Source: Lyngbya sp. CCAP 1446/10 (GTDB taxonomy: Bacteria > Cyanobacteriota > Cyanobacteriia > Cyanobacteriales > Microcoleaceae). From it: DNA of 64,000 bases. Shown piece after piece: positions 20,636-49,503 of this stretch (position 1 is its first letter; each line of letters starts with the position of its first letter). The stretch is from assembly GCF_026130175.1 (NCBI RefSeq), contig NZ_JAIGNI010000010.1:1-64000 (forward strand), given 5' to 3'. Below the pieces are notes generated by a model. The model was not told the origin of the DNA. It did no database searches and saw only the letters and a list, made by a program, of their open reading frames with translations. Both the position numbers and the translations under genes were made by a program.

Positions 20636-22672
20636 ATGCCCGGCCCGAGCCCTGACGGTCTTTCCTATCTTTTAGATGATAGCCCCAATAGTTTCGCATT
20701 AACTCCGGGCTTTTTGACTCCTTATCCTAACGGACTTTTTGCCCTCGGAGGTAACGATTTTATTGTCGGTTCCTCGGATGCCGATCGCCTCAACGGTGAT
20801 AATGGTAATGACAGACTCCTCGGCGGTGGCAATTTCGATACACTCTTCGGTGGTGTCGGGAATGACTTGCTTAACGGCGGTACCGGCAACGACTTGCTGT
20901 TTGGCGGCAAGGGCAGCGATACCTTGCAGGGAGGTAGGGGAGATGATGCCCTCTACGCCGGCAACGGTAGCGACGTTTTAGTGGGCGATGGGGGCAAAGA
21001 TACGCTGACAGGGGGTTTGGGCGCAGATACCTTTGTCCTCCGCAGCAACTCCCCAGTCTCCGATCCGGCTGTTGCAGACCTGATTACTGACTTTAACAGT
21101 TTTGAGGATGCGATCGGACTAACCGACAATCTTACCGAAGCAGACCTCACTTTGGAAGCAGTTGCGGACACTCCCAATACAGTAATTAAAATTCGTCAAT
21201 CCGGTGCTATTTTAGGCGAAGTCGCCAACACATCTCCACAAAACCTCAGCGGTAAATTCATCTCTGCAAATACCGTATTAAGCAACCAACTCAGCCAAGC
21301 CCGCGATTTAGGCGTTTTGAGCAGCACTCAAACCATCGCCGACTCGGTTAGCAATGCTCGCCCAGACAACCTTTACCGCTTTACTTTGCCTGCAAATAAC
21401 GACTTTCAATTAACTGTCAGCGGTTTTAGTGCCGATGTTGACGTGGCCGTGATTAAAGATATTAATGGCGACAATTCTATTGACTTTACCGATATTATTG
21501 CTTCTGCTAAAGAATCGGGTTTATCGCCAGAATCTATCGATCTCAAAAATTTGGCACCCGGAACATACTTTGTCCGAGTTTATCAAAACCAAGGTAATAC
21601 AAATTTTACCCTAAATTTATCTGCAACTCCTGCCAATATTGTTCCTGAAAATCCCAGCAACTCACCGGATTTTGACTCTCGTTCTGGGTTCGGTTTGGTG
21701 AATGCGGCGGCGGCAGTTGCTAAAGCTCAAGGTGTTGCAACTTTTCCTGATGTTCCCGACTTGGGCGGCGACGAGTGGGGCAGAGACTTAATTAAGGCTC
21801 CAGAAGTTTGGGCGAAGGGCTTGACTGGAGACGGCATTGTTGTAGCAATTATCGACAGCGGAGTTGACTACAATCACCCGGATTTAACGGGGAATATTTG
21901 GAGTAATGGTGGGGAAAATGGCGTAGATCCGACTGGTAGAAATAAAGCTAGCAACGGCGTAGATGATGATGGCAATGGCTTTGTTGACGATTTCCGGGGA
22001 TGGGATTTTGCCAACAACGATAATGACCCGATGGATGATAACAGCCACGGTACTCATATCTCTGGTTTACTTGCTGCAAAAAGAGATGGAGTGGGAATAA
22101 CTGGAACGGCTCCGACTGCGAAGATTATGCCTTTGAAAATACTCAATAGCACAGGAGTAGGCAAAATTTCAGATGAAATTAACGCGATTAATTACGCGGT
22201 GGCAAATGGTGCGAAAATCATTAATATTAGTTTTGGCGGTCAACAGATCAACGATCGCGAATTGAGTGTAATTCGAGCGGCGGAAGCTAAAGGTGTGGTA
22301 GTGATTTCGGCGGCAGGAAATGATGCGCGCCCGGAGGTAGATTATCCGGCTAAGTTTGCGAATGAGGTAGGAATTGCTGTCGGTGCTGTTAACCGCAACG
22401 GCTTGTTTACAGATTATTCTAACCGGGCGGGATCAGACACAATTAGTTATTTTGTGGCTCCGGGCGGCGATGGTGGCAGGGCCGATGCTGGGGACGTTTA
22501 TTCAACTGTGCCACTCTCTCAACCTGGGGTTCCCTATCGATATTTTGCTGGTACTTCGATGGGAGTGCCACACGTATCTGGGGTGATAGCTTTGATGTTG
22601 CAAGCCAATCCGAGTCTGACTCCTGCTCAAATTAAGCAGATTCTGGCGGAAACTGCCAATCGATCGGTTTAA
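20636..22672 (+). CDS. Subtilisin-like (S8) protease with N-terminal RTX repeats
   Basis: 678 residues, probably secreted by a non-Sec route (no signal peptide). Residues ~38-133 are glycine-rich RTX nonapeptides (GGxGxDxLxG), which bind calcium. Residues ~134-215 are the linked DTFVL...ITDF module. Residues ~225-330 are a PPC-like beta-sandwich containing a calcium-loop-like DINGDNSIDF. The S8 domain spans ~375-678 with Asp407 (IIDSGVDYNHPDL), His471 (NSHGTHISG), Asn562 (SAAGND) and Ser641 (GTSMGVPHVSG), all intact. Oddity: the SGFGLVNAAAAVA segment (350-362), normally the last helix of a subtilase, stands before the catalytic domain, which itself ends right after ETANRSV. SD AAGGAG precedes ATG 20636. 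Confidence 0.93.
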   Translation: MPGPSPDGLSYLLDDSPNSFALTPGFLTPYPNGLFALGGNDFIVGSSDADRLNGDNGNDRLLGGGNFDTLFGGVGNDLLNGGTGNDLLFGGKGSDTLQGGRGDDALYAGNGSDVLVGDGGKDTLTGGLGADTFVLRSNSPVSDPAVADLITDFNSFEDAIGLTDNLTEADLTLEAVADTPNTVIKIRQSGAILGEVANTSPQNLSGKFISANTVLSNQLSQARDLGVLSSTQTIADSVSNARPDNLYRFTLPANNDFQLTVSGFSADVDVAVIKDINGDNSIDFTDIIASAKESGLSPESIDLKNLAPGTYFVRVYQNQGNTNFTLNLSATPANIVPENPSNSPDFDSRSGFGLVNAAAAVAKAQGVATFPDVPDLGGDEWGRDLIKAPEVWAKGLTGDGIVVAIIDSGVDYNHPDLTGNIWSNGGENGVDPTGRNKASNGVDDDGNGFVDDFRGWDFANNDNDPMDDNSHGTHISGLLAAKRDGVGITGTAPTAKIMPLKILNSTGVGKISDEINAINYAVANGAKIINISFGGQQINDRELSVIRAAEAKGVVVISAAGNDARPEVDYPAKFANEVGIAVGAVNRNGLFTDYSNRAGSDTISYFVAPGGDGGRADAGDVYSTVPLSQPGVPYRYFAGTSMGVPHVSGVIALMLQANPSLTPAQIKQILAETANRSV

Positions 22673-28444: not shown

Positions 28445-29380
28445 CTATTTTACTTCTATTTGAACAACGTAGTTTGCTTGGCGATCGCCCGAAATTTCAA
28501 TAGTATAATCGCCGCTGCTTGGTAGCTGACCTTGCCACTGACTCGTGCTATCTGCCGTGCCGATTGTTTCACCGTTAGGAGCAATGATTGCCGCGTTAAC
28601 TTGACTTTCTTGAACCTTGATTGTCATGCTTTGGCCGCTATTGCATTCTACCAAGTAGCGCTTGGATATATTGGCTCGCAAACTATTGTTGAGAGTAGTT
28701 CCCGTAGCACCTGCTGGAAAGTTAACTCGCTCAGTTACAGGGGTTTCCACCGCAGCGGGAGAAGGAGAGGGAGAAGGGTTCGGCAACGGCGAAGCAAGTG
28801 GCGGAACGCCTGAGAGCGAGGGAATTGGAGTCTGAGTGCCCAACGGAGGGATGGTGAGGGGCAGTGTCTGCTGGGGTGCTGGGGGAAGTCCGGGCCGGCG
28901 GTTGAGGCGCGCTGCCGGGACAGGTGGAGGGCTTTCCCGCAGTGGTACGTCAGCGGGCAGTCTGATTTGAATATTCGCTCTTTCCTGATACATTTTCCAC
29001 GCGAGGAAACTGCCGAGACTGAGCACGGAACCGACTAACATTCCGCTGAGAAAAACAGCCAAAATTTGCCAAATTCGAGTTGGTTTCGGTTCGGAATTTG
29101 CTGTCTGATTTAATTGAGTTGGGTGATTTTCATAATCAATAGTTGCTGGTGTGATTTCGGCAGCTATTGGAAAAGTTTCTGGTTCGCTTGTTGTGGCTAT
29201 AATATCTTCTCTGACGGCAATTTCAGTCGGAGTTTCTGCTGGTTCGGGATTAGCAGTTAAAGTATCTTCGGCTGGGGCAATTTCCATCGGAGTTTCTGCT
29301 GGTTCGGAATCTGCATCGAAACTGGCAATCGTTTCCGGTTGCTGAGTCAGAATTTGATTATTTTCCGGTTGGTCACTCAT
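28445..29380 (-). CDS. Membrane-anchored Pro-rich protein with beta-sandwich end
   Basis: 311 residues, not assigned to a named family. Residues 1-105 are acidic with the phrase AETPTEIA repeated two or three times. One membrane helix lies at ~107-130 (IWQILAVFLSGMLVGSVLSL). Next comes a Pro/Ser-rich linker (~150-220). The C-terminal ~90 residues (LVECNSGQSMTIKV ... GDYTIEISGDRQANYVVQIEV) resemble a pre-peptidase C-like or Ig-like domain. Topology suggests a periplasmic C-terminus. It runs co-directionally behind the DUF433/DUF5615 pair but with a separate ATG at 29380. Confidence 0.7.
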   Translation of the reverse strand: MSDQPENNQILTQQPETIASFDADSEPAETPMEIAPAEDTLTANPEPAETPTEIAVREDIIATTSEPETFPIAAEITPATIDYENHPTQLNQTANSEPKPTRIWQILAVFLSGMLVGSVLSLGSFLAWKMYQERANIQIRLPADVPLRESPPPVPAARLNRRPGLPPAPQQTLPLTIPPLGTQTPIPSLSGVPPLASPLPNPSPSPSPAAVETPVTERVNFPAGATGTTLNNSLRANISKRYLVECNSGQSMTIKVQESQVNAAIIAPNGETIGTADSTSQWQGQLPSSGDYTIEISGDRQANYVVQIEVK

Positions 29381-29475: not shown

Positions 29476-29820
29476 TTATCGAGATGGACGATTGACTCGA
29501 ACCAGCCTCCCTCTTAATGTTTCCAAATTAGAAATAGCGTCCGAAATTCGTGTAGCCATCCTCTGTCTATTCTGCTGATCGTCTTTACAGACAATGATAC
29601 CAGCATGATTAGGTAGTGAAGCGTGAAGTCGAATAAAATCGATACGATTGAGTGTCAAAACTGCCCGTTCGTTTGTGACGGCAAAAGCCAGGACATCTTC
29701 ATCAGGAATGCCCAGATTTGCATTCCTCGCTTCTTGTACAGTCAGCACATCGTGACCTAGGGCGCGAAGTAATTCAACTACTATCCTAGGGAATTGTTCA
29801 TCTGCGTACAAAAGTGCCAT
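29476..29820 (-). CDS. DUF5615 PIN-like toxin
   Basis: 114 residues. MALLYADEQFPRIVVELLRA with acidic Asp7/Glu8, GIPDEDVLAFA, and LTLNRIDF are the motifs of the DUF5615/Mut7-C-like PIN family. PIN folds are Mg-dependent RNases, and DUF5615 proteins are usually the toxin of a pair. It starts 4 bases after the stop of the DUF433 gene, so the two are translationally linked. ATG at 29820. Confidence 0.85.
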   Translation of the reverse strand: MALLYADEQFPRIVVELLRALGHDVLTVQEARNANLGIPDEDVLAFAVTNERAVLTLNRIDFIRLHASLPNHAGIIVCKDDQQNRQRMATRISDAISNLETLRGRLVRVNRPSR

Positions 29821-29824
29821 AATA

Positions 29825-30151
29825 TTAGTCTATATCATTCAACTTAATTGCTGATTCAATTTCGTCAGGAAATGCTTCAGCATAAGCCCAAGCGTTCTTC
29901 AAGTCGCTAGCACTAATGTGTGGATAATCTGCTAAAAGTTGAGCGTCAGTCGCGCCTAATCGACGAGACTCTACCAATCCCCAAACAGAAATTCGAGTCC
30001 CTGCAATCCTGGCATTACCGCCGACTACACCGGGAGTTTTTTCAATTCCCTGCCAAGCGTTAGCTAAACTTTGAGCTAATATCTGTATTGCGCGAGCTTT
30101 TTCAGGCGGAGTCAGGGAAAGCAGTTGTGGTTCTAATTCTTTTAGTGTCAT
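29825..30151 (-). CDS. DUF433 antitoxin-like protein
   Basis: 108 residues. The C-terminal half is a DUF433 domain: TPGVVGGNARIAGTRISVWGLVESRRLGATDAQLL..YPHISASDLKNAWAYAEA. It has a helix-turn-helix-like fold and is the VapB-like partner of PIN-type DUF5615 proteins. The gene precedes the toxin gene, as antitoxins usually do, and probably represses its own promoter. The N-terminal ~45 residues form a predicted helical region. ATG at 30151. Confidence 0.85.
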   Translation of the reverse strand: MTLKELEPQLLSLTPPEKARAIQILAQSLANAWQGIEKTPGVVGGNARIAGTRISVWGLVESRRLGATDAQLLADYPHISASDLKNAWAYAEAFPDEIESAIKLNDID

Positions 30152-30427: not shown

Positions 30428-33055
30428 TCAATTATTAGGTAAAGACTGCCAAAAAGGCTGCAGTTCAGGCTTCCTCACAGTATTCGTCGCCGACTGCACG
30501 TTTCCTTTCAATTCTTGATAATAGCTATCATCCAGAAAACTCACACTAACACCAGCGGTCAGCAGCAATTGACGCAATCTTTCTTGAGTGTAATCTAGAC
30601 CGTCAATCATCGGGCCGCGGGGATTAGAAACTAACAATTTGCCGTTGACTGGTACCGAATTGACCATATTCGGCCACCAAGCATAACCGCTGTAGCCAAA
30701 CATCGCTGGAACTTGAACGATTTGGTCGTCTGTCAGTGAAAACTCTCTTTTCAACTTGTCTAAAATCGGGTTAATTTTCTGCCTTTGCAAATTGAGATTG
30801 TGTTGAATTAAAGCTTGATTTTTCAAGGCGGCGTTGACTGTAGTTTCATTGCTCAAACCGCGATTGATAATAACCTCGCCGTAACCTTTCCCCGCCAATT
30901 CTTCTAACAGCTTTACTCCGGCTTCTGGACTGGCGATCGCCATTAGATATTTTCCGGGAATTTGACTGGGAATAAAATTGATAATTTCATCGACTTGGCG
31001 AGTCAAAAGCCAAGAAGTATCAATATCCACCGCAGGCCCTTGAATTCTTTGAGCTTGAATAAAATCAAGTACCTCTGGATTAAAACTCGCATTCCCCGAA
31101 TTCCCGTAATAAACTCGACCCATTGGGTATCCGGGAATCGGCGGTGTCACCTGCAAATTTCCGTAGCCATTTGACCACTGACTTACAGGGTTATCGTCGC
31201 GAGAGTTACCAATTTTAATCACTCTCAAATTACGCTCTTGATTTGATTTATCTGGCGGGTTTTTGTCGGGTTCGTCATTGCTTTTGAGAGCGACATTCAA
31301 TTGGCGTACATCAGATTTTTCGGGAAGTTGAATGTAGCCGTTTTTCTGAATATTTTGCATCCAAGCATTATCGCCCTGGATAATTTTTAATTGAGCGCCA
31401 GTAGGTTCTACTGCTTGTTTTAGCTGCGAGATGAATTCACTGTTGGCCGCGCCTCTGTCGCTGACTTGAACTTCTGTTACTGGTGCGGTATTGGCTGGTA
31501 TTATCCAAGGACTGACACCCATTTGGATGGTGGTGGCGGCGATTTGTTGACCGTTATTTTCGGCAGTTGCTTTGAGATTGACTTTACCGTTCCAATTGCG
31601 ATCGGCAAATTGTTTTGCTTCGACACCTAAAACAATATTCGTGCTAAAAACGAGTGGTTTTGTACCGGATATATCTACAGCTTGCCATCCCTCACCTATT
31701 TTCTGAAAAACGTTGATATGAGGGCTAGCAATGCTATCAGCAGTGATAAATAATTGAGAGGTTTTGAAGCTTTCAGATAAACTTAAGTTAACTTGAGAAA
31801 GCATGGCTGCGCGGCGGGGGACGCTAACTTTGGTTTGTTTCCAAGTGGCTATTTTTGTGCGCTCGCTTTTGGGATCGTTAAACACAATGAGCGCGCCACT
31901 AGACAATGACCATTGTTCTTTTCCGGCTTCGTCTAGTTGATTAATTTCGCCGTCTCTGTTAGTATCTCCCGCAAAAAAGAAGTTTGTCGGCGAGGCTGCG
32001 GGCGCTACAGGGGCTGGAGTTGCTGTTGCGGTTGATTCAGGAGTTGGTTGAGGAGTTGCTTGCTGATTTATTTCTAATTGTTGTCTTTGTTGTTCTTTTA
32101 GGGCGAGTTCTTGCTTTTCTAATTCTTGTCTGGTGAGTTCTTTTAGTGCTAATTCTTGCCTTTCTTGTGCTTGGCGGGCGAGTTCTTGTTTTTCTAATTC
32201 TTGGCGGGCGAGTTCTTGTTTTTCTTGTTCTTGGCGGGCGAGTTCTTGGCGGACTAATTCTTGTTTTTCTCGTTCTTGGCGGGCGAGTTCTTGGCGGGCT
32301 AATTCTTGTTTTTCTCGTTCTTGGCGGATTACTTCTTGTCTAGCAAATTCTTGTCTTTCTAATTCTTGGCGGGCGAGCTCTTTTTTCTCTTGTTCTTTTC
32401 TCTCTATTTCTCGGCGGGCGAATTCTTTTTTCTCTTGCTCTTTGCGGGCGATTTCTCTTACCCGTTCTTCCTCGGCTCTAATTTTCTGTACAGAACGTGC
32501 TACTTGCCATTCGTAGGTAGCGACAGTGAGGTTTCCTTGATATTCGATGGTTTTGTCGATCGCCCGCTCAGCCAAAAAAGAACCGTGGGGAATGAGTCGC
32601 AGGTGGTCGAGTGCGATTTGCCACAGGCGTTGTGACTCTTCCCAAGTAGCAGGGTCGGCTTTAGAAGTGCGTCCAATTACAACAGCTCTGGCCGCTATTT
32701 TAGCAGCATCGTCCCAATTATTTTTAGCTCTTTCTTCTGTTTCAATCTGACTTTGAGCGTTTTGGAGTTTCTCAGCCAGATTTTTGGATTCCTGGCGGTA
32801 CCAATGTTCTGGGGAAAACAGGTTGCTGTCGGGATTTTTCGCGCTGTTATCTAATTCTACCTTGAGGCGATCGCGCAATTTGTAGAGTTCCGGGAGCGAT
32901 TGCGGAGTGTCGCCGTCTGTCTGTCGCCCTGAGAGTGTGAGTTGGTAATTTAGGGAAGGTTGAGCGACTGTTGCGGGCACAGCAACCCAAATAATACCGA
33001 TGACGACACCGAAAGTATTCACAATGGCGATCGTAATATAGTTAACCCAGCGCAT
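30428..33055 (-). CDS. Secreted coiled-coil protein with inactive-looking peptidylarginine deiminase domain
   Basis: 875 residues. An N-terminal hydrophobic segment (~7-30) is a signal peptide or anchor. Residues ~191-333 are a long charged coiled coil of ELARQE-type repeats. An EF-hand-like loop, GDTNRDGEINQLDE (363-376), starts the PAD middle domain, and the C-terminal ~350 residues follow vertebrate PAD4 closely. Matching stretches are GYGNLQVTPP, WWPNMVNSVPVNGKLLVSNP and TNTVRKP. Catalytic positions compared with PAD4: Asp350 is Asn568 (WMQN), His471 is Gln687 (RQVDE), Asp473 is kept as Asp689, and Cys645 is Ser855 (VQSATN). Spacing is kept (119 and 168 residues against 121 and 174). PADs convert Arg to citrulline through the Cys, so this copy should not be a deiminase. 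It may bind Arg-rich targets or calcium, or be structural. Alignment is by eye. Confidence 0.85.
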   Translation of the reverse strand: MRWVNYITIAIVNTFGVVIGIIWVAVPATVAQPSLNYQLTLSGRQTDGDTPQSLPELYKLRDRLKVELDNSAKNPDSNLFSPEHWYRQESKNLAEKLQNAQSQIETEERAKNNWDDAAKIAARAVVIGRTSKADPATWEESQRLWQIALDHLRLIPHGSFLAERAIDKTIEYQGNLTVATYEWQVARSVQKIRAEEERVREIARKEQEKKEFARREIERKEQEKKELARQELERQEFARQEVIRQEREKQELARQELARQEREKQELVRQELARQEQEKQELARQELEKQELARQAQERQELALKELTRQELEKQELALKEQQRQQLEINQQATPQPTPESTATATPAPVAPAASPTNFFFAGDTNRDGEINQLDEAGKEQWSLSSGALIVFNDPKSERTKIATWKQTKVSVPRRAAMLSQVNLSLSESFKTSQLFITADSIASPHINVFQKIGEGWQAVDISGTKPLVFSTNIVLGVEAKQFADRNWNGKVNLKATAENNGQQIAATTIQMGVSPWIIPANTAPVTEVQVSDRGAANSEFISQLKQAVEPTGAQLKIIQGDNAWMQNIQKNGYIQLPEKSDVRQLNVALKSNDEPDKNPPDKSNQERNLRVIKIGNSRDDNPVSQWSNGYGNLQVTPPIPGYPMGRVYYGNSGNASFNPEVLDFIQAQRIQGPAVDIDTSWLLTRQVDEIINFIPSQIPGKYLMAIASPEAGVKLLEELAGKGYGEVIINRGLSNETTVNAALKNQALIQHNLNLQRQKINPILDKLKREFSLTDDQIVQVPAMFGYSGYAWWPNMVNSVPVNGKLLVSNPRGPMIDGLDYTQERLRQLLLTAGVSVSFLDDSYYQELKGNVQSATNTVRKPELQPFWQSLPNN

Positions 33056-33264: not shown

Positions 33265-33594
33265 TTATGCTGCTTCATTTCTAGCTATTGCTGTTTCAAT
33301 TTCTTCTGGGTAAGCATCAGCATAAGCCCAAGCATTGACTAAATCTGCTGCACTCAAATGGGGAAAGTCTTGCAAAATTCGCCCATCATTTGCACCCAGA
33401 TGGCGATAATTTACTAACGACCAAACGGGTATGCGAGTATTGCCAACACAAGCATCACCGCCGCCGCACACGCCAGGAGTTTTTTTAATGCCTAGCGAAC
33501 TATTGCTTACTGTTTGAAGTAAAAATTCTATAGCTGCTGCTTTGTCTGCTGAATTTAAAGATGCTAAATTGACTTTTAATTCGGTTATTGTCAC
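33265..33594 (-). CDS. Solitary DUF433 protein
   Basis: 109 residues from GTG 33594, which follows GAGGTG; the frame is open to 33645 but those residues are unlike the family. It is a paralogue of the 30 kb antitoxin-like protein (LSAADLVNAWAYADAYPEEIETAI), with the same two-part layout. Differences: the loop reads TPGVCGGGDACVGNTRIP, with two extra Cys. No DUF5615 or other PIN gene follows; the next 200 bases downstream are the inverted repeat at 33153. It may be an orphan antitoxin or a regulator in trans. Confidence 0.8.
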   Translation of the reverse strand: MTITELKVNLASLNSADKAAAIEFLLQTVSNSSLGIKKTPGVCGGGDACVGNTRIPVWSLVNYRHLGANDGRILQDFPHLSAADLVNAWAYADAYPEEIETAIARNEAA

Positions 33595-33965
33595 AGTTAA
33601 CACCTCGTTTTTATAGGAAGGTCTGTTTAATATTTTAGCTCGCAACTTTCTTCATGTCTAGCTATTTATTAGCTCGATTATAGCGCTTGAATCAGTACGA
33701 TCGCCGGTTTCGCTGCCACATCTCGGCAATACTGATTCCTTACCCGTAGCTGCGACTTGAAAAAAATGGTATTATTGTATTAATGTGCGATCGGGAAAAT
33801 CATACACCGCTATTGTAGAAATTATTCGCAGGAATTACGCACTCAAACCAAAGAAACCGGGTTTTTCAGGGAATCTGTGGCTGTGTACGAAGTATTTCGC
33901 AAAAAACCCGGTTTCTGGCTTCTCATTCAATTATTCCCTTTCTCCTTAACAGGGAGGTAAATATC
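33595..33965. other. Spacer with inverted-repeat element
   Basis: 371 bases. The only structured feature is an AAACCGGGTTTTT-family element at 33851-33915 (arms AGAAACCGGGTTTTT / AAAAAACCCGGTTTCT). A clear ribosome site GGGAGG stands at ~33952 before the next gene. No gene is seen. Confidence 0.7.
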
Positions 33966-35219: not shown

Positions 35220-35810
35220 CTACAAAATATTCTCATAATAACGTTGAATCCTATCAGCAAAAACCGGAACTTCCTCCCTCAACCTGACAAGTAATTCATC
35301 AACCGTCAGCGGTGGATTTTTCAAATCCTCAGCTTGCTGCGAGACCAAATTAGCCATCAAATCCGGCGCAACCTCATAAAGTCGATTCAGAAAAACATCA
35401 GGGTGCAGCGCCACAATACCCCAAGAATTGAGAGACTCTGGAGGAAAATCTCTGAGGTTAGACGTAACAATAACTTGAGCTTTCGCAATTACCGCAGCCG
35501 CCGCGACATGGCGATCGCCCGGATCGTTAGTCATCTGCAGAATCAAATCCTCCGGGACTTCAACCATTGCATTTGGAAAAGCTTCCTTAAGTGCAGCCTC
35601 GAAACGCGCAGCCTTCTGACTCGTCATCCTTCCAGTATTAACAAGATTGCGAGTTGCACCAGCTAAAATCTCTTCCGACCAATATAGATCGTATAACCCA
35701 TCTTCGGCAGCGCGAAATAGCGTGTCGCGCAAGTACATAGGAAAAATTACACAGGAATCCAAGACAACAGGATAGGGAGTCAGCCTGCTAGCTGTATACT
35801 CTACTCTCAT
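35220..35810 (-). CDS. PIN-domain toxin (VapC-like)
   Basis: 196 residues. PIN RNase motifs: VVLDSCVIFP (Asp18), a central acidic position, TNDPGDRHVAAAAVIAKAQVIVTSNLRDFP in the second half, and a helical tail of ~55 residues absent from minimal VapC. All expected acidic residues are present. It overlaps the upstream gene by 23 bases, so the pair is translationally coupled. It probably cleaves RNA when the partner is lost. Confidence 0.85.
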   Translation of the reverse strand: MRVEYTASRLTPYPVVLDSCVIFPMYLRDTLFRAAEDGLYDLYWSEEILAGATRNLVNTGRMTSQKAARFEAALKEAFPNAMVEVPEDLILQMTNDPGDRHVAAAAVIAKAQVIVTSNLRDFPPESLNSWGIVALHPDVFLNRLYEVAPDLMANLVSQQAEDLKNPPLTVDELLVRLREEVPVFADRIQRYYENIL

Positions 35811-36267
35811 TGAGTTCCTCTTCTTGGCTAAACTCGGCTAATTCTCTCAAAATTTCGCGGCGTTTAACAGTACGCTGCTTTTTATATGCCATTAAATCTC
35901 CTAAAAAAATTCGCCGTTCAGAGCCTACTTTCACATACTTAATCGCCCCTTCTGCTAACAGTTTCATCAAAAATGCTTGCGATACATTCAGCAAAATAGC
36001 AGCTTCTTCAACAGTCATATCTGGCTCGATCGGCACTAAAGACACGGCTCTACCAGCAGCCATTAAATGTGCAGCTTGACACAATAATTGATAGAGCGAT
36101 TCAGGAAGTGTGATTTCTTCCCCGCCAATTTGCACAACGTTCACTTTTAATGTCTCAGAATCATCATTTTCTATCTTGAGAGATAGCGTTTTATCCAACA
36201 ATTTGATAGCTATGGTTTCTTCTTCTGTCGGTAAAACCGGATCTAGGAGTATTTTTTGCCTGTTCAT
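35788..36267 (-). CDS. Excisionase-type HTH antitoxin
   Basis: 159 residues. A winged-helix excisionase/MerR-like DNA-binding unit lies at ~85-130: MTVEEAAILLNVSQAFLMKLLAEGAIKYVKVGSERRIFLGDLMAY. It reads DNA with the HTH and a wing (VGSERRI). The N-terminal ~80 residues are a separate domain (IGGEEITLPESLYQLLCQAA). Position before and overlapping the PIN gene marks it as the antitoxin, probably autoregulating the pair. ATG 36267. Confidence 0.85.
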   Translation of the reverse strand: MNRQKILLDPVLPTEEETIAIKLLDKTLSLKIENDDSETLKVNVVQIGGEEITLPESLYQLLCQAAHLMAAGRAVSLVPIEPDMTVEEAAILLNVSQAFLMKLLAEGAIKYVKVGSERRIFLGDLMAYKKQRTVKRREILRELAEFSQEEELNESRVYS

Positions 36268-46986: not shown

Positions 46987-49503
46987 TTAAGCGATTGCCT
47001 TTGTCGCATCAGCTATAATAGCTTCAAGTTCCGAGTAGGGAATCAAAAGAGTTTCCATAATAAATTGTTCAACCGGCTTACTAATTTTTTCAGAGTTACC
47101 TTGAAGACAATCAATTAAAATTCGATTTGCATAAATGTAGGCAAAAAGTTCACCAAAGTCGTGCTCTGTCAGCTCCCATTGATAGTCAATATTGCGATAT
47201 TTTTGGGAAAATTTCCTTAGTTTTTCTGCCCAAGCTTCACTCTCATACCTACGCCATTGTTGATATTGTTCCCAACAATTGTAAACACCTTGAGGAAGTT
47301 GCTCGTAGAGCTGAGATAGCTCCAAGCTTAAGTTTTCCCAGCCATTGTTATTGCAAAACTCTATCGCTCTATATAGAGATTCTGCAAGTTCGTAGAAGTT
47401 TGTATCATCAAGACGATTAAAAAACTCAAACTCCTCCTCATTTTTGTTCAACATCCAGTCATTCTTTTCTGCTGCATACCTAACGTCATCTAAACGTAAA
47501 GCACGCCCTAAGAGCGAAGCATGAGCACGAGCATGGCAGAGGTCTCGATCGAAGGCTGGTTCCCCTTCTAGAGAACCAAAGAAATTACCCAGCGACAATC
47601 CCTGTCCAGAGTTGTGATAAACAGAGAGCTCAATCCTGTCATCCAATTTTGATAAGAGATGGCACAAATCATCTATTAACCAGAGTGGATCGCAAAATAA
47701 TTCTAATTCATCAATGGTGTTGATAAGTGTTAGTAGGCTGACATAAAAGCAACGAAGAGTTGTTCTTGAATAGCAACTAGAAGTATTTGAAGCCTTTCGA
47801 TATACCCACCTCAGAATAAGCTGTAATCTTTCATGACAGAAGATCGATTTATCAATCCTAAACTTGAGTAAGAGAGTAAAATAATCGATATTCAATATCT
47901 TTTCAGAAAACAGTAGGATAACTTGCTCCCATTTTTTTTCATAAAGATACCCGATCAATCCTACTCCTCGCTTGTCTTTGCAGCTAAAGTTGAGAGCGAC
48001 TAAATATTCTTGAAAAGTTAGATGCGAAAAAGACCATATTTTTTGCGATCGCTCAATCAACAATTCATGCTGCGCTTCCATCGCCCTCAACACCGCCCGA
48101 CTATCCCGCTGCCCAATCCCCAAAAACTCTGCAATATACTCCTCTATTTCTGCCTGCTCAAATAGCACATATTGCTCTTTTTCAAACTTCTTCACTGCCA
48201 GAAAGCTCAATAGTTCTAGCTTTCGCTCCACTGACAAATCGCGATAAATCTCATCCCGCTCAATCTCCCGCGACTTGTCCCACTGCTCCAGCAGCAACTC
48301 CAACCCCTCTTCATAAAGCTTGGAACGCTTCGAGTAAAACTTTCCCTTGTGGTGAAACACCGCACAAGTCAAACTCAGCAAAATCGGCGTAATTGCTAAC
48401 TCCCGAATCGACTTATTCTCCTCCAAAAAGAGCAGCCGCAGAAACTCCTCGGCTTTTGCCAGTCCCCCCGACTCATCCCCCATCACCGCCTTATACCAAT
48501 GTTGGGCAAAAGCCCGCGCCTGCGTTTCATTAAAATCCGCCACCTCCACATAATCAAACCGCTCAAACCGCGATTCCTGACTCTGCGTTCGACAAGTTAC
48601 AATTACCTGCACCTGCGGATAAGTGCGAGCAAACCGCTTGATTTCCTTCGCAATGTTCTTCCCATCTTCTCCCGTCACCTCATCCAACCCATCCAGCAGC
48701 ACCAGCGCCCGACCTCGATCTAGTACCAATTGAGTTTCGGCATCCGATAACCGCCAGCATCCCTCTAGATAATCGTCTAGCGAGTAGGCAACCTCACGCC
48801 CATCCTCGACAAAATCTCGCAGTTTAATCAAAACCGGAATCCGGTGCGCTTGTAAATTCTCAGCAATGCACTCCATCACCACTCGCTGCAAATACGTAGT
48901 CTTTCCCGAACCCGGTTTGCCCACCACCATCAGGTTCGCATTCTTTGCCAGCACCTCTAAACCTGATACCCGTTTTAGGTGTTTGCCCAAACCAATGCGA
49001 TCCAAACTGCGGTAGCTGGGATTTTGGCTGAAGTGCTGCCACAAGTCATCCAATTCGGATTTACGACTACTACTGAGTTCCTCCAGAAGATTGACATCCA
49101 CAAACAAGTCACCCAACGGCACGCAACGATCGACCCCCCAAAGCGGCATGGTGCCGTGCAAGCGCTGGATGTCATCGTGGAGGCGCGATCGTACCTGCTG
49201 AACTAACGCATCGATATCATCTTTCAGGATCTCCAGAGGGGGATCTAAAGGTGAATTCGTTGGTTTACCTTTGTCCTGAACCTGTTCATCGTCAGGTTCC
49301 CATTTCAGTTTGAGCTTTTTGCAGATGCAAAGAAACTGCTTGCGCTGAACAGGTTCACCTTTAAAAAAATTGCTGATGGTGGTACGCGACATCTTTAATT
49401 CAGCAGCCAAATCTGATTTGCTACCAAATTTTGCTAATGCGATGTCCGCGTTTTTCAGTTGAGGTGGCGATAGTCTGAGAGATCGTCCGCTAGGTTCCGT
49501 CAT
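46987..49503 (-). CDS. HTH-NACHT NTPase, NLR-like
   Basis: 838 residues. N-terminal Cro/C1-like helix-turn-helix at ~23-62 (SKSDLAAELKMSRTTISNFF, then GEPVQRKQF). A linker leads to the NACHT NTPase at ~170-440: Walker A GKPGSGKTT (195-203), Walker B RALVLLDGLDEV (265-276), sensor VIVTCRTQ, and a helical region with WSFSHLTFQEYLVAL near 490. The last ~330 residues are helical with no LRR, TPR or WD repeats that I recognise. NACHT proteins are STAND ATPases that oligomerise on sensing a trigger; bacterial ones include anti-phage genes. An HTH in place of a nuclease or protease effector suggests DNA binding or transcriptional control. ATG 49503. Confidence 0.88.
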   Translation of the reverse strand: MTEPSGRSLRLSPPQLKNADIALAKFGSKSDLAAELKMSRTTISNFFKGEPVQRKQFLCICKKLKLKWEPDDEQVQDKGKPTNSPLDPPLEILKDDIDALVQQVRSRLHDDIQRLHGTMPLWGVDRCVPLGDLFVDVNLLEELSSSRKSELDDLWQHFSQNPSYRSLDRIGLGKHLKRVSGLEVLAKNANLMVVGKPGSGKTTYLQRVVMECIAENLQAHRIPVLIKLRDFVEDGREVAYSLDDYLEGCWRLSDAETQLVLDRGRALVLLDGLDEVTGEDGKNIAKEIKRFARTYPQVQVIVTCRTQSQESRFERFDYVEVADFNETQARAFAQHWYKAVMGDESGGLAKAEEFLRLLFLEENKSIRELAITPILLSLTCAVFHHKGKFYSKRSKLYEEGLELLLEQWDKSREIERDEIYRDLSVERKLELLSFLAVKKFEKEQYVLFEQAEIEEYIAEFLGIGQRDSRAVLRAMEAQHELLIERSQKIWSFSHLTFQEYLVALNFSCKDKRGVGLIGYLYEKKWEQVILLFSEKILNIDYFTLLLKFRIDKSIFCHERLQLILRWVYRKASNTSSCYSRTTLRCFYVSLLTLINTIDELELFCDPLWLIDDLCHLLSKLDDRIELSVYHNSGQGLSLGNFFGSLEGEPAFDRDLCHARAHASLLGRALRLDDVRYAAEKNDWMLNKNEEEFEFFNRLDDTNFYELAESLYRAIEFCNNNGWENLSLELSQLYEQLPQGVYNCWEQYQQWRRYESEAWAEKLRKFSQKYRNIDYQWELTEHDFGELFAYIYANRILIDCLQGNSEKISKPVEQFIMETLLIPYSELEAIIADATKAIA

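Follow-up and report, generated by a model that had tools for sequence, protein, structure and literature searches.

Our analysis of the window, i.e. the whole stretch of 64,000 nucleotides from Lyngbya sp. CCAP 1446/10, shows that the gene at 30428..33055 on the reverse strand encodes a protein of 875 residues which has the fold of the peptidylarginine deiminases (PADs) and lacks their cysteine nucleophile. As judged from sequence comparisons, we consider it probable that the protein is a pseudoenzyme, namely an exported type of PAD whose nucleophile was lost within the bacterial family of the window and which has been retained for a non-catalytic job in the envelope, be it structural or by binding. 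The protein would accordingly be a PAD by descent but not as an enzyme.

The PAD fold had already been proposed in the first-pass annotation, and the structural match bears this out. The match begins at residue 356, which corresponds to residue 112 of PAD4, and part of the middle domain together with the catalytic domain extends over residues 356–873 (30437..31990; all codons and protein segments given here lie on the reverse strand). Homology in the PAD_C domain places the protein in the PAD protein family by descent. Pfam PAD_M matched 36 of 56 aligned members, the window protein being without a match at E 0.001. Upstream of the fold are a hydrophobic segment ending in VAQ (residues 1–32; 32960..33055), which may be a signal peptide or an anchor, a four-helix module (residues 48–196; 32468..32914) and a charged helix rich in E, Q, R and K with a period of five, and also fifteen, residues (residues 197–335; 32051..32467). 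By eye, the family rows that start at a methionine have N-termini resembling this hydrophobic segment, and the signal-like N-terminus makes export of the window protein plausible.

Within the catalytic domain, the positions of PAD4 Asp350, His471 and Cys645 are occupied by Asn568 (31352..31354), Gln687 (30995..30997) and Ser855 (30491..30493), and only Asp473 is retained, as Asp689 (30989..30991), which agrees with the initial reading of the active site. One of the two guanidinium acids, Asp350 and Asp473, is thus kept. In addition, the alignment places Lys571 (31343..31345) at Glu353, which we take to be a calcium ligand, and Ile569 at Glu351. The window protein contains no cysteine anywhere in its 875 residues, so that a cysteine-dependent deiminase mechanism is impossible there. 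The same absence was seen in 26 of the 27 rows of the genus, some of them cut by contig ends, and the one remaining row has its single cysteine inside the N-terminal hydrophobic segment.

The gene was present in 27/29 genomes of the genus and in 57/61 of the family (50/52 among those of good quality), and in the wider samples in 104/388 genomes of the order and 24/386 of the phylum. As it is missing from two good-quality genomes of the family, it is not indispensable. The alignment comprised 104 rows, with one copy per genome, second copies in two f10 genomes and the corresponding segment of human PAD2. Five disrupted copies (G005, G417, G523, G033 and G655) were excluded from the residue counts, and the duplicates L001 and L046 were also dropped from the genus alignment. 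Identical proteins place Kamptonema sp. UHCC 0994, Oscillatoriales USR001, an Okeania MAG, a Trichodesmium MAG and Trichodesmium erythraeum in the sampled set.

The loss of the nucleophile is wider than the first-pass annotation had supposed, since it is absent from every scored copy of the whole bacterial family. In the 55 scored family rows position 645 is Ser in 38, Asp in 13, Thr in two, Ala in one and Met in one, and the copies concerned include records of Trichodesmium, Okeania, Kamptonema and Microcoleus. The other three columns read Q27 H25 N3 at His471, D38 G10 E4 N3 at Asp350 and D54 S1 at Asp473; each of the four catalytic positions is therefore lost in at least one genus. Outside the family, Cys645 is kept in 20/21 rows of the sister groups f2, f44 and f50, and in each of the other 27 rows (three-domain cyanobacterial PADs, four long f10 forms, f35 and human PAD2). 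The single exception, G457 (L136), has Ser at the nucleophile position and Lys at 353, and might represent a second, independent loss. We also noted divergent PAD homologues of about 1000–1060 residues with an intact catalytic set (L139–L141 and L143), two of these genomes having a normal three-domain PAD as well.

The extent of the loss differs between genera. Among the four catalytic residues, only the cysteine is lost in four genera (13 rows), one of which is the genus that includes Trichodesmium and the Okeania MAG; in all four it is replaced by Asp. The g3 genus has lost Cys and Asp350 (Gly at 350 in 10/10 rows), and in the Kamptonema genus 3/3 rows read Glu350, Asn471 and Ser645. In the genus of the window, Gln471 occurs in 27/27 rows and Ser645 in 26/26 scored rows, accompanied by Lys at 353. 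In the family copy G410, Asp473 is also gone, to Ser. The Asn/Gln/Ser triad is not a signature shared by the orthologues: Gln and Ser are common to the genus, but Asn350 is found in only 3/26 genus rows and other genera have lost other residues. Living relatives consequently represent graded stages, with Cys alone, Cys and Asp, or Cys, His and calcium-site residues missing, and the single steps from enzyme to non-enzyme are therefore testable one by one.

These columns bear on two alternative explanations in which the pocket would still be used. The main rival, to which we give limited credence, is that the dead pocket binds peptidyl-arginine or citrulline without turnover and thereby marks or holds arginine-rich envelope proteins. 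It owes this position to the persistence of the two guanidinium acids, at 350 and 473, in 41/55 family rows, so that copies outside the genus of the window may still bind arginine or have some other chemistry, and it is also favoured by Trp347, which is retained in 55/55 family rows. However, position 350 is Asn in the window protein and Gly throughout g3, and the Arg372 column differs in 25/27 genus rows, although the alignment of this loop is unsure. The second alternative, that the Ser or Asp at 645 acts as nucleophile or base of another hydrolase reaction, would agree with the constancy of Asp645 across its four genera and of Ser645 across the window's own. Yet the position varies between S, D, T, A and M within the family and the partner His is also lost in the window's genus, so that we regard new chemistry as very unlikely.

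The calcium sites, numbered in part after PMC11402830, changed as well. An acidic cluster of the middle domain, which by comparison with PADs can be read as a calcium site, is gone in 27/27 genus rows, where a net basic stretch takes its place; it is kept as four consecutive D or N in 29/29 of those other family rows for which the anchor motif could be located. With Lys571, Ile569 and no acidic cluster, the window protein does not have the calcium-site residues of a PAD enzyme, suggesting that it may act independently of calcium. Position 351, described as a Ca2 ligand in PAD4 (PMC11402830), is already Thr in those rows of the sister groups whose catalytic set is intact. Altered calcium binding is therefore not peculiar to the inactive copies, and the control by calcium may have shifted at an earlier stage than the active site.

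For the phylogenetic trees the catalytic columns were blanked beforehand. One tree contained 99 rows, omitting G005 and the four long f10 forms, the other 57 rows, omitting G005 and 19 rows of close relatives. The family forms a single clade among sister PADs with intact sites (SH-aLRT 98 with 99 rows and 100/99 with 57 rows), and f2, f44 and f50 are its closest relatives in both trees. In the tree of 99 rows, human PAD2, the sole vertebrate row, groups with the three-domain cyanobacterial PADs, on which side we rooted this tree.

Selection was estimated from medians of pairwise Nei-Gojobori dN/dS in the PAD domain, using pairs with dS of 0.1–1.5. The values for the inactive groups were 0.179 in the window's genus (319 pairs), 0.086 in g3 (44 pairs) and 0.130 in g4 and g149 (44 pairs), compared with 0.139 in the intact f2_g5 (20 pairs) and 0.101 in the intact f50 (6 pairs). 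As yardsticks within the window's genus, putA gave 0.068, pntB 0.073 and a neighbouring gene for a protein of 311 residues 0.347. Selection clearly constrains the inactive PAD domain, as had been supposed for the fold at the outset; the genus value exceeds those of the intact PADs, putA and pntB, and the constraint is therefore somewhat looser there. This looser constraint would also be expected from plain decay of an unneeded gene, as would the four of 61 family genomes without a match and the two seemingly disrupted copies among the 57 of the family (G417, which is divided between frames, and G005, whose frame is lost close to the C-terminus). We nevertheless hold decay to be the least probable explanation, considering that dN/dS is far below 1 in all three inactive groups, that 57/61 genomes retain the gene, that Asp473 departs in only one of 55 family rows and Trp347 in none, and that three disrupted copies (G033, G523 and G655) occur outside the family too.

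The segment in front of the PAD domain had been taken for a coiled coil of about 140 residues, and this part of the first-pass annotation was not supported. Residues ~196–335 show a self-identity of 0.43, 0.50 and 0.63 at offsets of 5, 10 and 15 and of only 0.14 at offset 7; hydrophobic peaks were obtained at periods of 5.0 and 2.5, with no heptad (3.5-residue) peak among those listed. Lys or Arg follows Glu most commonly at i+3 (23 cases), and a charged helical spacer accounts for these features better than a coiled coil does. Measured between the same landmarks, this stalk is 122–206 residues long in 26 genus rows and 33–50 in 29 other family rows, so that, of the family rows measured, only those of the window's genus have the long form; in 17/26 genus rows the lengths differ by multiples of five.

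The helical N-terminal module (32468–32914 of the window) has no match in Pfam. A profile of it gave eight matches in its own genome at E 0.01, comprising the window gene itself, six partial matches and one near full-length match, the latter in a frame of 444 residues that also encodes a domain of the beta-lactamase family (Pfam E 1.5e-27). Taken together with the hydrophobic N-terminal segment, this fusion points to the envelope as the probable location. At E 1e-6, matches were found in 16/59 sampled genomes of the phylum, many of them partial, and the module is recognisable in the sister PADs G144, G581 and G437. The module is thus found again, for the most part incompletely, in further proteins of the same genome (L148 and L149–L154) and in those of other cyanobacteria.

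The gene for the 311-residue protein used above as a yardstick lies downstream of the PAD gene (28445..29380, reverse strand) and by eye encodes one membrane span and a C-terminal outer domain. It was found downstream in 13/19 genus genomes at distances of 178–2698 bp, and was missing in two (L061 and L062) with 6 kb of downstream sequence examined. In four of eight f50 genomes (L127, L134, L136 and L144), whose PADs are intact in three cases and Cys-less in one, a frame sharing its C-terminal part follows the PAD gene after 20–108 bp; this frame was the best genome-wide match of the domain in all three genomes searched and carries a Ser/Thr kinase domain in both frames scanned (L136 and L144). 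Such an arrangement would be in line with a signalling role, in which the PAD domain serves as outer ligand or co-receptor of the single-span neighbour, the counterpart of a Ser/Thr kinase in sister genomes. We think this rather unlikely, as the partner was found neither in L061 and L062, nor in the other four f50 genomes, nor in the examined flanks of 18 family loci from other genera, and as the window's neighbour itself has no Pfam kinase match.

DUF433 and DUF5615 genes, presumably of toxin-antitoxin type, flank the PAD gene (29476–30151 and 33265–33645 of the window) and occupy the gap between it and the gene of the 311-residue protein. Their position shifts between species, as if this spot were collecting such modules. 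A PIN-domain gene beside a helix-turn-helix gene (35220–36267) is likely another toxin-antitoxin pair. Elsewhere the window contains a subtilase with RTX calcium-binding repeats and a PPC domain (20636–22672) and a STAND protein with a NACHT domain (46987–49503).

Returning to the reading as a non-catalytic envelope protein, the following course of events may be proposed. The cysteine nucleophile of an exported-type PAD would have been lost, once or several times, within the family of the window. The window's genus would in addition have lost His, Glu353 and the acidic residues of the calcium cluster in the middle domain, and gained a charged helical stalk which may keep the PAD domain away from the four-helix N-terminal module. 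The product would serve the envelope by structure or by binding, the PAD domain providing its binding face, and would be comparable to mammalian PADI6. More tentatively, it is conceivable that this one family of cyanobacteria possesses an actual counterpart of PADI6, i.e. that the PAD fold was turned, independently of mammals, into an envelope building or tethering protein, and that in Microcoleus and its kin a rigid helical rod, changing in length mostly in steps of five residues, determines how far the PAD domain extends across the envelope. Should this be true, the PAD fold would appear prone to turning structural.

According to section 7 of PMC8826395, the principal paper on the evolution of PADs among those found, the catalytic residues are conserved in all PADI homologues, the corresponding figure being based on six sequences per group; the 55 scored family copies without the nucleophile stand against this statement. 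As the nucleophile is missing family-wide, the annotation 'protein-arginine deiminase' is no evidence of citrullination there. Cyanobacterial or other microbiota PAD/ADI have been suggested as enzymes that might deiminate sea urchin proteins (PMC8464700), and PADs of Arthrospira, Limnospira and Microcoleaceae are the best matches of a PAD-like sequence in Table 5 of the same paper. Literature titles and abstracts gave no account of Cys-less bacterial PADs among the matches listed.

Among known systems, the fold class is shared with the pentein-fold guanidino enzymes such as arginine deiminase, DDAH and the PPAD of P. gingivalis (PMC8826395). The three-domain cyanoPADI of Cyanothece sp. 8801 has a catalytic domain homologous to that of the window protein and, unlike the latter, is described as active and calcium-dependent (PMC8826395); the three-domain cyanobacterial PADs lie across a long branch from the window protein in the tree of 99 rows. 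The sister PADs of f2, f44 and f50 share the hydrophobic N-terminus (by eye) and the middle and catalytic domains, but have the full Asp/His/Asp/Cys set in 20/21 rows. The closest parallel is PADI6, for which PMC11402830 reports no activity in vitro, no calcium binding and an Ala at the nucleophile position, and which belongs to the scaffold of the cytoplasmic lattice in the egg (PMC13060343). In PADI6 the Asp and His residues are retained and cysteines lie next to the nucleophile position (PMC11402830), and the protein acts in the egg cytoplasm, whereas the window protein has no Cys, has lost the His, carries a stalk and is probably exported. Both have lost the nucleophile and, as predicted from sequence in our case, calcium-site residues while keeping the fold, and the window protein thus provides a bacterial example, alongside PADI6, of a PAD that has probably turned non-catalytic.
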